DNA of 64,000 nt. Origin: Ignavibacteriales bacterium. GTDB lineage: Bacteria > Bacteroidota > Ignavibacteria > Ignavibacteriales > SURF-24. The stretch is taken from positions 1-64,000 of the forward strand of contig JAPLFH010000041.1 of NCBI GenBank assembly GCA_026390815.1, in the 5' to 3' direction. Of this stretch, positions 214-7,032 are shown piece by piece. The translations under genes were made by a program, and so were the position numbers. How positions within the stretch are numbered: the first letter of the stretch is position 1; each line of letters starts with the position of its first letter. A model generated the notes under the pieces. The model saw only the letters and a list, made by a program, of their open reading frames with translations. It did no database searches and was not told where the DNA came from.

Positions 214-2313
214 TTATTTCATCTCTTCTCTCTTCACAAACTTTTTCCCATTCCAGTAAAGAATTTGGGATTTAATAATATTACAATATTCTGGTGTATC
301 GGTTAATGGTGGTTTTAATTTACCATGAACTACTAATGTATCTCGTTGTATTCTAAAACTATTTTCAATTTTTATTTCAATATCTTTTAAATTATATCCC
401 ACTAAAAAAAGAATGTCTGCGCTACCCGGTCTCTGGCTAATAGCTTGGAATATGCATTTAATATCAGGATGATTTCTTAAATGATCCTGCTCCATAGAAG
501 CCCATCTTAAATTCAGAAACTTATTATAATCACTGTTGGGATAAAGAATGTGCATTAGGGTTTTGGCTAATGGATAGTTTTTTATTAAATATTCAGGTGT
601 AGTAGGCAATACTTTTGTTCCACTCAATTCCTTTATATCAATTATTGCTAAACTTGTTTTTGCATATCCGTTATTTTGTGGTGCAAAAATAATTTCTTTA
701 GAACTATCATCATCTATATCATAAATAAAACCTTCTCTAATATGACCACTGTTCCATAATGTTCCATCTAATCTTTTTCCTGTTATTAAATCTAACTTAA
801 AAAGTGCCGCACTATATGAAAAATCATTTATTGCAATAGCTACAAGTTGTTTTTGTTTATTTACAGTTATTGTGTCAAGTAGTCTAATGAAATAGGGTGG
901 AGGTAAAAATTCCCTTTGTGAAAAAACTGTATCCTTAAAGATATATTTCCATATTTCATTTCCATATTTATCAAAACAAACAAGTCTGCCTTTTTCTCCC
1001 TTATTTTTAAGAAATTGCACTATTTCATGTGTGGCAAATAATTCATTAACACCATCCCCATTAATATCTATTAGTCTAACAAAATATTTTAGATAAGTCT
1101 GATAATTATTTTTGGAGTCAAAATTAATATTTAAATTCCACAGTACCTTACCACTCTTATTTTTCACATATACTGTTTGTCCAACACTTTCTAATATCGC
1201 AGGGTTATCATCATAATCTCTGATGGCATAATAAGAGGAGAGTAAGATTAAGAGCAAGAGTAAGACTGAAACTCCCCAATGGCGTTTTACATTCTTAGCG
1301 GTTCTAACAACCGGGTTTTGTTTTTTAATTTCAATTAAGCTTCTTCTATCTAAAAGGTCGTCAAGATCTTTCGCTGGAACAAGTTTTAGTTTTCTTTCCG
1401 GATAAACTTCATTCAATTCATTTATCTTTTGCTCTGCTGAAAGTAAATCATCATTGGGAACCACAAACGAATTAATACTTGAGAAGAAGACAACCTCAAC
1501 TTTCTTTTTAATAATTTCGTCACCTGTTCGTGTAATTTTTCCTGATGATTCCAATCCACCTGTTGATGCAATGCTGCTTTTTATATTTACAAGGTATGGG
1601 GAATTATAATACTTAAGGAGTTTTTCAATAAATCCAATTGCCAGTGTAACGCCAAGCGATTCACCAATGTAGTAACCAACCCTTTCATCAAACTGAATTA
1701 TCACTTTATGGTATTTACCTATTTTTCTAATTAGTCTCTTAACATAGTTCGTTGCAGATTGCCAGGAATTTTCAATTTGTTTTTGAAGCCGTTCCTCTAT
1801 TTCAATTTCGCTGGGAATTATTATAAATTGGTCTTTTGACGCTCTTGTTATTTCAATTGTAATGCTGTCAAGGATGCCTAAAGTAAAATTTGCACCATTG
1901 TTATTCTGAACTTCAAGCACAGGGAAAAGGAGTTTATTAGTTATTGGATTTTTGTCTTTGCCGATTAGAATATCATACAATTCATTTAACTGCTGTTGTA
2001 TTATACTGTGAGCTGATGTAAGATCGTTCCTGTAATCCGACAGAAAATCAAGCGCACTTACTTTATTAATCTGTTCAAGAACATTTTGTGTTATTTGGGG
2101 ATCGAGATAAAGAGGACTGTATTTTTTTAGAGTTTCTTTGTAGAGATCTATAAATTCCAGAATATATGACTGTGTTATAAGTGGATCATTTGAACTTAGC
2201 ACAACTTCAAAGAAGTTGTTTATTAATAACAGTTTTTTAAGGCAAGAACCCGGATGGCTAAGTGATTGAATCAGTGCTTCCCTTGCTCTTTCAATAACTA
2301 CAATGTTTGTCAT
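214..2313 (-). CDS. Membrane protein with Lon-protease-like domain and FG-GAP-like C-terminal part
   Basis: The 699-aa protein has three visible parts. Residues 1-200 are a helical cytoplasmic region. Residues about 205-320 resemble the Lon (S16) proteolytic fold: GESLGVTLA at 217-225 matches the GPSAGITMA serine loop of Lon (Ser219), followed by a TGG...GKI...VVFF...VVPNDD succession like Lon's TGEI...VLIP.EN. The catalytic Lys usually found in GLKEK is not evident, so activity is doubtful. One strong transmembrane helix lies at 346-362. The remainder (about 365-699) is predicted outside the membrane and contains an FG-GAP/EF-hand-like DINGDGVNEL at 416-425 and a second DIDDDSSKEI. There is no signal peptide. 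It is a single-gene unit with its own hairpin downstream. The role is unknown; the fold assignment is by motif only. Confidence 0.6.
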   Translation of the reverse strand: MTNIVVIERAREALIQSLSHPGSCLKKLLLINNFFEVVLSSNDPLITQSYILEFIDLYKETLKKYSPLYLDPQITQNVLEQINKVSALDFLSDYRNDLTSAHSIIQQQLNELYDILIGKDKNPITNKLLFPVLEVQNNNGANFTLGILDSITIEITRASKDQFIIIPSEIEIEERLQKQIENSWQSATNYVKRLIRKIGKYHKVIIQFDERVGYYIGESLGVTLAIGFIEKLLKYYNSPYLVNIKSSIASTGGLESSGKITRTGDEIIKKKVEVVFFSSINSFVVPNDDLLSAEQKINELNEVYPERKLKLVPAKDLDDLLDRRSLIEIKKQNPVVRTAKNVKRHWGVSVLLLLLILLSSYYAIRDYDDNPAILESVGQTVYVKNKSGKVLWNLNINFDSKNNYQTYLKYFVRLIDINGDGVNELFATHEIVQFLKNKGEKGRLVCFDKYGNEIWKYIFKDTVFSQREFLPPPYFIRLLDTITVNKQKQLVAIAINDFSYSAALFKLDLITGKRLDGTLWNSGHIREGFIYDIDDDSSKEIIFAPQNNGYAKTSLAIIDIKELSGTKVLPTTPEYLIKNYPLAKTLMHILYPNSDYNKFLNLRWASMEQDHLRNHPDIKCIFQAISQRPGSADILFLVGYNLKDIEIKIENSFRIQRDTLVVHGKLKPPLTDTPEYCNIIKSQILYWNGKKFVKREEMK

Positions 2314-2907: not shown

Positions 2908-5900
2908 ATGAAAAAACTTTTTACACTTGGTTTTATTGTTAGTATTATTTCTATAGCGTCTGCACAATTGGTACCCGTCACTTTTCACTTCAAACCTGAT
3001 TACACACAATTTACAACACTAAGAATAGCAGGAACTTTTAACAACTGGAACAATGCTGACCCAGCAATGGAAATGAAAGACCCTGATGGTGATGGAGAAT
3101 ATGATTTAACAATAGACCTTGCGAAAGATCTGGATCATAATTATAAATTTGTTATGGATGCAAACTGGGGATTTGCTTATACCGATCCGGACAATCCAGT
3201 TATTAATATTTTAGATAATAACAACTCAACTTTGCATGTTAAAGATCCTCTTATAACTTATTTACTGCCAAGAGATATAAATTCGAAAAGTGAAAAATTT
3301 ATTGATGTAACACCAACCGGCTTACCAATAAGAGCAATTTTTGCTTTTACACAAGCTAATCCAATTGATCCGAACACACTCCAAGTAATTATTGATGGCG
3401 TTCCTTTGAGTAATCCATCTCAATACTACGATGCGCAAAAGAGAGAATTTAAATATCAACCTAACCCTGCGTTAACAATTGGCGACCATACAGTAATTGT
3501 TTCAATTACATCAGCTTTAGGAACAGATGAAAGAACTTCCACATTCAGAAGAGATCCAAATTACAAAGTTTACAATGTTCCGGTTGATTTTTATTTCGAT
3601 CAAAATAATACCTCAGTTGTATTTTCTCAGAAGGTTACAGATGTAGTTGTAACGGGCACCTTTAATAATTGGAACGATGTCTTTAATCCAATGCGCGATC
3701 CTGATGGAGATGGGTTATGGGAAGCAACCGCAACAATAACGCCTGATAAGTATGAATACAAATTCAAACTAAATAAAATAATATGGGTTAATGATCCTGA
3801 TGAACCTGCAATTGGAACATCTGCAGATCAAAACAGCCTGGTTGTTGTTGTGGCTGATTCAATACCAAAAATAAAATTAGTGCAGCCTTTGGAAGGAACA
3901 ATCTTTTCAGAAAATCCTGCTAATGTAAGTTTCAAAGCTTTACTGCGCCCTGGAGTTAAATCATCTGGAATAGTTGACGGAAGTATCATTACCAAATTAG
4001 ATGGAACAAATATTCCGAATAGTTTCGATACTACAACTTCAACTGTAACTTCCACTATGATTTTAAATGGTGAAGGAAGACATATTGTTGAAGTTTCTTT
4101 TACTAATAAGGAGGGTTTGTCTGCCAGCGAAATTTACTCGTATGGAATTTATACCAATCCAAAGGGAAAATACATAGTTGATGCATTGAATGATGAGCCT
4201 TACTCATATCCTGCCGGAGTACCAAATGGTTCAGCAGATATTCTTTCCGCAAAAATCACAGATACACCAACGCACGACTCTTTGAAATTTGCAATTCAAT
4301 TAAAAGATGTTACAGACAGAACAAGAATTGGATTGATCATCACAAGCCCCAGCAGCACTTTAGCAAGCGATCCGTTGGGATTAGACATCAGAACTCCGAA
4401 CTGGAATGGTCAGGGAATTTTTGCATCAATCGGTGCCCCTGGAAACCTTTTTGAAAATCCTATTACTGAAAACCGAATAATGGTAAGCAACAATCCTGTA
4501 ACATACAGCAATTATTATTTGAACATCAATAATGATGCATTAACAAAAGATGAATTTGATTTTACCATCAGTCTTTCTTTTTTAGATAGCATAATTGGAA
4601 GCTGGACAAGAGACCGGCAATTCATGGTTTTTTCATTTATTGCTGCTGATGATAAAAGCGGTAAAGGTTTTGAGGTTGGGGTAAACGAAGGCGGTACAAG
4701 TACAAGTGAAGATCCAAATATTTATGATGCAGCATTTATCAGAAGCGGTTTCTGGCAAAAACGAATGTTTAAAAATTTTATTCCTGTAGGTCAGCCTAAT
4801 GGTCCCCGGTTTGTAACGCTTGATGGAAAAGGAAGAGGAATTCTTTCTGTTACCTCAAACGAAATTTCTGACAGTCTTGCAAAATTCGGAACAGATATTT
4901 CTTTCCTTACACCTGGAGTGGAATACTGGTATCCAGATGTAACCGTTCACGGTGAATTGAGTGATCTTTCGATATCAACCATAACTTTTTATTTTAACAA
5001 TGCTCCAAGTACCCAACAAGTTACCGCCGGTAAATTTGATGTTCCATTAACATTAAAGGAAGGCGAGAATATAGTTTATGTTGTTGCTGAAGATAGTAAA
5101 GGTTTTAAATCAACTTCAAAAAATTTAATTATGAATTATAAACCGGATACAGAACCATCGATTGCTATTGATGGAACAGTAACCGGAAGACAAGTAAAAC
5201 TAACTGCAAATGTAACCTCGCCAATTGGTGCGCAATTTACTTATTTGTGGTCAGCTGATCAATTAAACCCGGCAAATGTATTTCTATCATCTACGCAAAA
5301 GGAAGTTACAATAAATATCCCGCAAACTGATGGAGAGTATTACTTCAATTTAAGAGTTAGGGATTCCAAGAATAATAGAATTTATGTTAGAAAATTAGTG
5401 CTGGCACAGGGTGATTCTATTTTATTACCGGAAATAAACCATCATCCCAAATGGGTTGATGATGCAATTGTTTATGAAATTTATCCACGATCCTTTACTC
5501 AGCAAGGAGGATTTTCCGGAGTTGTGGAAAGAATTCCTGAAATGAAAGCGTTGGGTGTTAACACAATTTGGTTTATGCCAATTTATACAGGACCAACCAC
5601 TCACGGTTATGAAATTACTGATTATTATGGTTTTGAAGAAGACTATGGAACCGAAGCTGATTTTAGAGCTATGATGACAGCGCTTAAAGCAAACGGATTT
5701 AAAGTTATTCTTGATTACGTTGTAAACCACACTTCAATTCAACACCCGTTTATGCAGAATGTTTTTCAGTATAAAGAATACTCGCCTTGGGCTAACTTCT
5801 ATATCTGGGATGGTGAACCAGGAAATTCCAATTATCAATTTTTATTTGATTGGTCTAGCTTGCCAAATTTAAATCATCAAAATCCTGATGTAAGAAAATA

Positions 5901-7032
5901 TTTTATTAAAGCTGCAAAGTATTGGGTTAGCAATTTTAATATTGATGGATTTAGATGTGATGTTGCATGGGGAGTTGAACAAAGAAATAATCTTTTTTGG
6001 CAGGAATGGAGGGAAGCATTAAAAACAATTAAGCCGGATATTTTTCTTGAAGCGGAAGCCAGTTCAGCAGAAGCAGTATTCTATCAGAATAGATTTGATT
6101 CCGCAAACGACTGGGAACTGCGTAATAAATTACTTGGTGCTTTGAATGGATCTGTTACAATACAATCTTTACATCAGGAAGCTACACGCGTTTATCCTGA
6201 GTACGCTCGTCCGTTTAGATTCCTGGAAAATCATGATGAAGTAAGAGTCGCATCATCGTTCGATACCAAGCGGTCGGTTTTACTCCACACAATTATTTTT
6301 ACACTTAACGGTGTCCCGTTGATTTATTCAGGTGGAGAAGTTGGAGAAATAACCCGGCGGGAAATGATTAACTGGAGCGATCCCGATAATGTAAAACCAT
6401 ATTTCAAAAAATTAACACAGATACGTAGCAAGTATATCCATGATCCGAAGATAGAGTTAATTGATAACACAGACAATAATAATGTTTACTCATATTCATC
6501 TATAAGCGGCAATAATGTTGTTCTTACAGCAGCAAACTTTAGAAATGAATTAAAAAATACTAATATGGATTTATCAAAACTTCCATACGATGGTTCAAGC
6601 AATTATTATTTAACAGATTTGATAGATGGCAAGGTTTACAAGGTTACTCCTGAGCAGCGGACTGCTTTTCTAATAAGTCTAAATGAATACCAGGCAAAAG
6701 TATTTTATTATGGATTAGATTCAGTAACAGTTGTTGATGTTGAGAATTTTGCAGATACAAAAATTCCATCGCAATATAAACTATTTCAGAATTATCCAAA
6801 TCCCTTTAACCCGGTATCAATGATCAAGTACCAGATAAAGGAGACTGAAAAAGTTACTTTGAAAATTTATGATATGCTTGGTGGAGAAGTTGCAACATTA
6901 GTGGATGAATTTAAAAGTCCCGGAACCTATTATGCTCAATTTAACGGAGCAAACTTAAGCAGCGGAATTTATTTCTATCAATTGAAATCTGGTAAGTACC
7001 TGGAAACGAAAAAGCTTGTTCTGTTAAAATAA
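2908..7032 (+). CDS. Secreted GH13 alpha-amylase-family enzyme with two glycogen-binding-like modules and T9SS domain
   Basis: This 1374-aa protein should hydrolyse or rearrange alpha-glucans at the cell surface. It has a signal peptide (cleavage about residue 19, ASA-Q). Two CBM48/E-set-like modules share GTFNNWN and DPDGDG (about 22-120 and 225-315). A region around 425-600 with ALNDEPYSYPAG resembles the C-terminal domain of glucodextranase. The GH13 barrel starts near 850 (VYEIYPRSF). Its conserved regions are complete: DYVVNH at 936-941, nucleophile Asp1018 in GFRCDVA, acid/base Glu in FLEAEA (Glu1050 aligns best), and Asp1110 in LENHDE. The protein ends in a T9SS type A sorting domain (about 1290-1374, NYPNPFNP to KKLVLLK). 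It is monocistronic with a hairpin terminator. Family is certain; substrate specificity (amylase, neopullulanase or cyclodextrinase type) is not resolved. Confidence 0.93.
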   Translation: MKKLFTLGFIVSIISIASAQLVPVTFHFKPDYTQFTTLRIAGTFNNWNNADPAMEMKDPDGDGEYDLTIDLAKDLDHNYKFVMDANWGFAYTDPDNPVINILDNNNSTLHVKDPLITYLLPRDINSKSEKFIDVTPTGLPIRAIFAFTQANPIDPNTLQVIIDGVPLSNPSQYYDAQKREFKYQPNPALTIGDHTVIVSITSALGTDERTSTFRRDPNYKVYNVPVDFYFDQNNTSVVFSQKVTDVVVTGTFNNWNDVFNPMRDPDGDGLWEATATITPDKYEYKFKLNKIIWVNDPDEPAIGTSADQNSLVVVVADSIPKIKLVQPLEGTIFSENPANVSFKALLRPGVKSSGIVDGSIITKLDGTNIPNSFDTTTSTVTSTMILNGEGRHIVEVSFTNKEGLSASEIYSYGIYTNPKGKYIVDALNDEPYSYPAGVPNGSADILSAKITDTPTHDSLKFAIQLKDVTDRTRIGLIITSPSSTLASDPLGLDIRTPNWNGQGIFASIGAPGNLFENPITENRIMVSNNPVTYSNYYLNINNDALTKDEFDFTISLSFLDSIIGSWTRDRQFMVFSFIAADDKSGKGFEVGVNEGGTSTSEDPNIYDAAFIRSGFWQKRMFKNFIPVGQPNGPRFVTLDGKGRGILSVTSNEISDSLAKFGTDISFLTPGVEYWYPDVTVHGELSDLSISTITFYFNNAPSTQQVTAGKFDVPLTLKEGENIVYVVAEDSKGFKSTSKNLIMNYKPDTEPSIAIDGTVTGRQVKLTANVTSPIGAQFTYLWSADQLNPANVFLSSTQKEVTINIPQTDGEYYFNLRVRDSKNNRIYVRKLVLAQGDSILLPEINHHPKWVDDAIVYEIYPRSFTQQGGFSGVVERIPEMKALGVNTIWFMPIYTGPTTHGYEITDYYGFEEDYGTEADFRAMMTALKANGFKVILDYVVNHTSIQHPFMQNVFQYKEYSPWANFYIWDGEPGNSNYQFLFDWSSLPNLNHQNPDVRKYFIKAAKYWVSNFNIDGFRCDVAWGVEQRNNLFWQEWREALKTIKPDIFLEAEASSAEAVFYQNRFDSANDWELRNKLLGALNGSVTIQSLHQEATRVYPEYARPFRFLENHDEVRVASSFDTKRSVLLHTIIFTLNGVPLIYSGGEVGEITRREMINWSDPDNVKPYFKKLTQIRSKYIHDPKIELIDNTDNNNVYSYSSISGNNVVLTAANFRNELKNTNMDLSKLPYDGSSNYYLTDLIDGKVYKVTPEQRTAFLISLNEYQAKVFYYGLDSVTVVDVENFADTKIPSQYKLFQNYPNPFNPVSMIKYQIKETEKVTLKIYDMLGGEVATLVDEFKSPGTYYAQFNGANLSSGIYFYQLKSGKYLETKKLVLLK

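Follow-up and report, generated by a model that had tools for sequence, protein, structure and literature searches.

Where a sigma factor is set free by a signal at the membrane, the anti-sigma factor is commonly a membrane-spanning protein that undergoes regulated intramembrane proteolysis (PMC8999054). In the CalpL/T/S system, the Lon-SAVED protease CalpL cuts the anti-sigma factor CalpT, and CalpS is freed (PMC12751052, PMC11417357). The protein described below resembles YlbL of Bacillus subtilis in having a membrane helix and an S16 domain that carries a putative Ser-Lys dyad while lacking an AAA+ module, and differs from it in that the membrane helix of YlbL is N-terminal, YlbL has a PDZ domain, its S16 domain is thought to be extracellular and its substrate is a division inhibitor; stripped of its membrane part, YlbL was inactive in vitro (PMC6051672). 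A Ser-Lys S16 domain is likewise shared with LonC, whose representative MtaLonC has no ATPase activity, and with the archaeal LonB, which is inserted in the membrane. Unlike our protein, both carry an AAA+ or AAA-like module, and PMC3391209 describes a sensor ectodomain for neither. YlbL and LonC are examples of S16 domains that lack a working AAA+ motor.

The gene studied here lies in a 64,000-nucleotide stretch of DNA from an Ignavibacteriales bacterium, referred to as a whole as the window. It is present as a single copy in the 4.52 Mb genome, at the left edge of its contig (C41), which ends 213 bases past the stop codon. The parts of the encoded protein, with their window positions, are listed below.

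214-2313, minus strand: whole ORF, 699 amino acids plus stop, ATG start; helical N-terminus, S16 protease, membrane helix and FG-GAP-type ectodomain.
1954-2313, minus strand: N-terminal part, residues 1-120, five predicted helices in the model, no Pfam family matched.
1324-1944, minus strand: Lon/S16 proteolytic fold, residues 124-330, from VIA, Foldseek and the profile match to A. fulgidus Lon.
1657-1659, minus strand: Ser219, proposed nucleophile, kept in 29/29 aligned proteins and 76/76 S16 hits.
1561-1563, minus strand: Thr251, in the conserved TG motif past the serine helix; Thr in 66 and Ser in 4 of the 76 hits.
1501-1503, minus strand: Lys271, proposed general base, kept in 29/29 aligned proteins and 76/76 S16 hits.
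1216-1281, minus strand: single membrane helix, residues 345-366, the sole hydrophobic segment, rich in Lys and Arg on its N-terminal side.
217-1215, minus strand: ectodomain, residues 367-699, FG-GAP/propeller type, found in relatives with the head swapped for a zinc-finger (ZAS) head.
1039-1068, minus strand: calcium-loop-like motif 1, DINGDGVNEL, residues 416-425; across 29 rows D416 is almost always kept and N423 always.
691-720, minus strand: calcium-loop-like motif 2, DIDDDSSKEI, residues 532-541, the same DxNxDG-type loop.

The window protein itself matched no Pfam family above the cut-off, and its S16 and FG-GAP labels are based on its relatives, on profile hits to Lon domains of known structure and on a predicted model. 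The model, built from a 23-row alignment with relatives, has a mean pLDDT of 87.4 and a pTM of 0.52, so that the individual domains are reliable and their relative placement is unreliable. Residues 124-330 matched human Lon in VIA with a Z of 20.6 (rmsd 2.4, 176 aligned residues) and E. coli Lon with a Z of 19.1, and the best Foldseek match of the model to Lon domains had an E of 3e-9. The preliminary description had recognised a Lon-like fold from the serine loop GESLGVTLA (residues 217-225), and the structural comparison that it had itself proposed as a check thus bears it out. The family profile reached A. fulgidus Lon at E 8.7e-10, the S16 domain alone at E 1.4e-10 (the best sequence match), the S16 profile was closest to archaeal Lon, and Lon_C was matched in 6 of the 29 A1 members (Pfam, E<=0.1). 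In alignments, Ser219 corresponds to the GDS serine of A. fulgidus Lon and to the GPS serine of the Lon encoded by the same genome, and Lys271 to the lysines of QKIEA and NEKLLAA, respectively. The catalytic lysine, earlier called not obvious, can therefore be assigned to Lys271, which aligns with the catalytic Lys of solved Lon and is invariant alongside Ser219. Only six columns were invariant across the 29 aligned proteins (S219, K271, S278, P371, N423 and G523), and the equivalents of S219 and K271 in D-type proteins, which carry a different ectodomain, were also invariant (Ser285 and Lys337, n=10). That the window protein has an S16 fold with a Ser-Lys dyad is virtually certain. Since both residues are kept in all 76 S16 hits (chosen at E<=1e-6, near-duplicates among them), it looks like a true protease, with activity predicted from sequence conservation; of the proteolytic and pseudo-proteolytic readings first offered, the former is favoured and the latter was rejected on the invariance of the dyad (29/29 and 76/76). 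No AAA family was found by Pfam in the window protein or among its 29 relatives, as had been noted from the start, and only 123 residues, mostly helical in the model, lie ahead of the S16 domain.

Pfam matches of the window protein to CHU_C (E 0.049) and ACSF4-propeller (E 0.13) fell below the cut-off and were discounted, and the P14 PDB match (E 0.3) was a chance alignment across the membrane helix. Six pattern matches were examined for viral relatives of the protein and none was confirmed. Besides a canonical Lon, the genome holds a second Lon-family frame of 824 aa with a GDS-type motif (G000:C40:28739-29053, L074). The open-access papers searched, subscription papers lying outside that search, yielded no description of the protein or of the gene set to which it belongs.

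Of the 294 class genomes searched, 85 returned matches. The named relatives come from Ignavibacteria and 'Bacteroidetes' MAGs, with one labelled Melioribacter and one Caldithrix. The ORFs that were read fall into four architectures.

A type, ~700 aa: the layout of the window protein.
B type, ~490 aa: membrane helix and ectodomain as in the A type, with a zinc-finger (ZAS) head replacing S16.
C type, ~780 aa: the A-type layout with a longer N-terminus.
D type, ~1030 aa: the same S16 part, with an ASH-like and Laminin_G_3 ectodomain (62.7-74.6 bits against a cut-off of 27.6).

The B-type residues H3, H30, C34 and C37 were invariant in 11 of 11 rows. In a tree of the ectodomains made by a quick method (73 rows, two of them 'other'), the S16 label requires three changes, two of which are forced by starred branches; with its many long branches the tree fits more than one head exchange, and we claim no exact number. 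One locus (L035, G207:C24:8161-26844, the same region as L092 and L110) carries four paralogous proteases in ~14 kb, accompanied by a single SIG gene and a pair of ANTI genes (SIG and ANTI are defined below), and one B-type protein of 857 aa (L069:1549-4122) has a tandem pair of ectodomains and a head lacking HxxxCxxC.

The single membrane helix named in the preliminary description is the sole hydrophobic segment of the protein (residues 345-366). Lys and Arg were more numerous on its N-terminal than on its C-terminal side in 28 of 29 rows, the one exception being a row whose top hydrophobic peak is an N-terminal stretch arising from an early start. The anti-sigma head of the B type must be intracellular, and because B-type proteins have the helix and ectodomain in common with the window protein, the S16 part should be inside too. 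A cytoplasmic S16 part with an N-in/C-out topology is thus supported but not proved. The FG-GAP-like nature of the outer region also holds, through the relatives: FG-GAP_3 was found in 16 of the 29 A1 members (Pfam, E<=0.1) and FG-GAP exceeded the Pfam cut-off in some relatives (for example, 32.5 and 37.6 bits against 26.9), whereas the window protein itself gave no Pfam match to FG-GAP repeats. The calcium-loop-like DINGDGVNEL was confirmed in place. LamG in the D types, together with weak matches to polysaccharide-lyase propellers, points to sugars as possible ligands. We infer that the signal sensed by the ectodomain is extracellular, and the passing of an external signal to a cytoplasmic domain, as first suggested, is judged probable.

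Two genes recur around the relatives, one encoding a protein of ~335 aa, sometimes shorter (SIG), and the other a protein of ~170-290 aa (ANTI); membrane segments were found in none of 24 SIG and none of 15 ANTI proteins. A loci are ordered SIG-ANTI-protease, or protease followed by SIG-ANTI; C and D loci are ordered SIG-ANTI-protease; and in B loci SIG lies immediately ahead of the B-type protein. Among the places listed, SIG was found within 5 kb on the same strand in 27 of 50 A/C-type places, at 5-10 kb in 3 more and on the opposite strand in none, in 12 of 22 D-type places, with one additional SIG on the opposite strand, and in 56 of 59 B-type places (ZAS with the same ectodomain). The lists for A/C, B and D were hand-sorted and exclude fragments at contig edges, the second piece where a protein is in two, and the second ectodomain of tandem pairs. 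Among the listed A/C places, 20 of 50 had no SIG within 10 kb; at least five of these genomes (G090, G151, G155, G171 and G239) do carry a short SIG beside the protease, and the distance counts are undercounts in that short SIG matches are absent from the listed places.

At the genome level, SIG and the family were both present in 99 of the 294 class genomes, the family only in 2, SIG only in 10 and neither in 183. SIG thus accompanies the family in 99 of 101 genomes (Fisher p ~1e-63, with kinship ignored), a family count that includes the B type and is obtained from 133 genomes by removing 32 with a best E of only ~1e-5 to 1e-8, likely ordinary Lon. Outside the class, all 17 family-bearing genomes also had SIG, and 4 of 21 SIG-bearing genomes lacked the family at the threshold used. 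Some of the named loci coincide with whole-genome loci (for example, L078/L100, L085/L104 and L090/L108). We hold with high confidence that the protease family is linked to the SIG-ANTI pair. In the window genome, one SIG and one clear ANTI are adjacent on contig C56 and the protease is on C41. A join of the two contigs, if real, would place SIG-ANTI directly after the protease; no 15-mer is common to the final 1000 bases of C56 and the initial 400 of C41. A genome of the same family (G245) has SIG (E 7.5e-79) and no protease-family match, indicating that SIG can persist in the absence of the protease family.

ANTI is probably an anti-sigma factor, a view that has support short of proof and in which we have good confidence. 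Among the genes directly following SIG, 10 of 17 in C/D loci and 4 of 4 in readable B loci carry the motif HxxxCxxC, compared with 9 of 699 other ORFs. A profile of the zinc-finger members reached the anti-sigma factor RsiW at E 0.0011, where a collagen fusion ranked higher only through summed weak repeats, and 3hug_B, which we take to be RslA of Mtb, at E 0.26. The zf-HC2 family was matched in 9 of the 16 zinc-finger members (E<=0.1), and a mixed ANTI profile reached RsiW at E 0.013, below three designed proteins that had no individually passing stretch. Two His and two Cys were invariant in 16 of 16 zinc-finger rows, which had been preselected for the motif. The resulting His-His-Cys-Cys pattern of the B-type and zinc-finger rows equals that of the zinc ligands of RslA, given as His25, His50, Cys54 and Cys57 in PMC2877774. 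HxxxCxxC is missing from A-type ANTI, including the 177-aa ANTI of the window genome (L099). An A-type-seeded profile reaches zinc-motif C-type members (for example, L120 at E 1e-31), and A-type ANTI is therefore read, from sequence, as a degenerate relative of the zinc-motif form.

For SIG, the balance tips modestly towards a sigma factor. Across 24 members, there was no weighty Pfam, NCBIfam or PDB sequence match and no Pfam sigma family, and the SIG profile had no significant match to the 16 ECF sigma factors of the same genome (probability 0.5%); the sole alignment falls on what we take to be the usual region-2 stretch. A model of a relative from locus L090 (pLDDT 81.4, pTM 0.66) gave nothing below E 0.001 in Foldseek. 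In VIA, all eight rows spanning the N-terminal part among the first 20 were sigma chains, of RNA polymerase or sigma-28, with weak Z values of 5.0-6.2 (5.0-5.5 against sigma region 2) that fall in the caution range for helical proteins. For the C-terminal part the closest fold was the lambda Q antiterminator, with 95 residues matched at Z 7.3, a lead only at Z below 8. SIG is split into two ORFs in four loci, by an intervening stop in the same frame (L083:6968-7954 and L114:10886-11881), a frame change (L081:7628-8613) or a gap of ~300 bases (L093:2949-3941); decay, assembly error and tolerated splitting are indistinguishable here.

Upstream of the protease gene and divergent from it, a secreted alpha-amylase that carries CBM-type modules as well as a Por secretion tail is encoded on the plus strand (window 2908-7032), and the ~590-base gap between the two genes is a candidate target promoter region. 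A long run of minus-strand genes (window 7335-31091) includes several carbohydrate-acting genes; among the eight ORFs scanned, the amylase included, are an alpha-L-rhamnosidase, a ROK protein, an esterase, a GH38 and a TonB receptor.

Two features escaped the preliminary description, since they lie beyond the window or in relatives: the partner proteins, one sigma-like and one anti-sigma-like, and the swap of the S16 part for a ZAS head on the same ectodomain, which gives the pairing of protease and ectodomain a testable meaning. We propose that the window protein is a membrane receptor, with an ATP-independent Lon-type Ser-Lys protease on the inside and an FG-GAP-type sensor on the outside. 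At rest, SIG would be held by ANTI, both being soluble proteins whose genes lie at another place in the genome. Once the ectodomain encounters its signal, the S16 domains would become active, for example by oligomerising, and would cut ANTI, setting SIG free and turning its regulon on. Cleavage of ANTI by the protease has, in our estimate, an even chance of being right, the precedent of CalpL cutting an anti-sigma factor being counted in its support (PMC12751052, PMC11417357). The explanation as a whole, a single-pass receptor-protease that cuts ANTI and frees SIG, would likewise be as readily doubted as believed, with the example of YlbL, the separated contigs of SIG-ANTI and the protease, the listed A/C places that have no SIG within 10 kb, the lack of the zinc motif in A-type ANTI and the weak SIG matches counted against it.

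The S16 domain might instead be a scaffold that binds ANTI without cutting and lets go once the ectodomain is occupied. The same ectodomain sits on a non-proteolytic ZAS head in the B type, and the switch can therefore run protease-free; S16 folds used without proteolysis also exist, as in ComM, fold rows of which are among the VIA matches. A scaffold would not need Ser219 and Lys271, yet both are kept throughout the 76 S16 hits, and we regard it as unlikely. Slightly more doubtful is a role in membrane quality control, in which the protease gene would be linked to SIG-ANTI because SIG transcribes it and not through a substrate relation. The A-type protease is often distant from SIG-ANTI, like a target gene, and archaeal Lon is the closest match of the S16 profile, but the operon position in C and D types argues against this reading, and two unrelated ectodomains (FG-GAP and ASH-like plus LamG) on one S16 part, together with the S16/ZAS swap, suit sensing better.

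If the protease cut SIG, or both partners, it would turn the regulon off rather than on. The linkage is with the SIG-ANTI pair as a whole, and ECF sigma factors held low by proteolysis are known (PMC8999054); on the other side, the anti-sigma head on the same sensor in the B type points at control of ANTI, and the precedent, CalpL, cuts an anti-sigma factor. This outcome seems more improbable again. The least probable of the alternatives leaves the rest of the switch unchanged and makes SIG another client of ANTI, such as a helical transcription or antitermination factor. SIG lacks a sequence match to sigma factors and the best fold match of its C-terminal part is lambda Q (Z 7.3), but the eight rows spanning its N-terminal part are all sigma chains, and zinc-finger anti-sigma genes normally sit after a sigma gene.

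Should the receptor-protease reading, in which ANTI is cut and SIG released, prove correct, a single molecule would serve as both receptor and protease, the anti-sigma factor would be soluble, a natural Lon active site would be controlled across the membrane without ATP, and a sigma-like family that present models miss would be exposed. Compared with the membrane ZAS anti-sigma factors RsiW and RslA, the B-type relatives show the same plan, with a His-His-Cys-Cys head, a membrane helix, an outer domain and an adjoining SIG, while the window protein has a protease where the zinc-finger head would be. The likeness to CalpL/T/S lies in a Lon-type protease N-terminal of a sensor, with anti-sigma and sigma partners that are putative in the present case; the difference is that CalpL senses cyclic tetra-adenylate through SAVED (PMC12751052, PMC11417357), and the present family has an FG-GAP region, or an ASH-like plus LamG one, past a membrane helix. 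No chain named CalpL was among the S16 profile matches at E<=10, PADLOC models gave no match to the three proteins tried, and Pfam found no SAVED family in the window protein, which is thus not a CalpL and would work like one if the proposed mechanism holds, extending the CalpL logic past CRISPR. We consider it possible, somewhat short of an even chance, that these proteins of Ignavibacteria and their relatives are trans-envelope receptors of a new kind, in which an outside sensor directly controls an ATP-independent Lon in the cytoplasm, this Lon cuts a soluble anti-sigma factor, and a so far unrecognised sigma family is released. Calp would then be one branch of a general signalling module whose S16 or ZAS heads are swapped between systems, as are its FG-GAP, ASH-like plus LamG or SAVED sensors.
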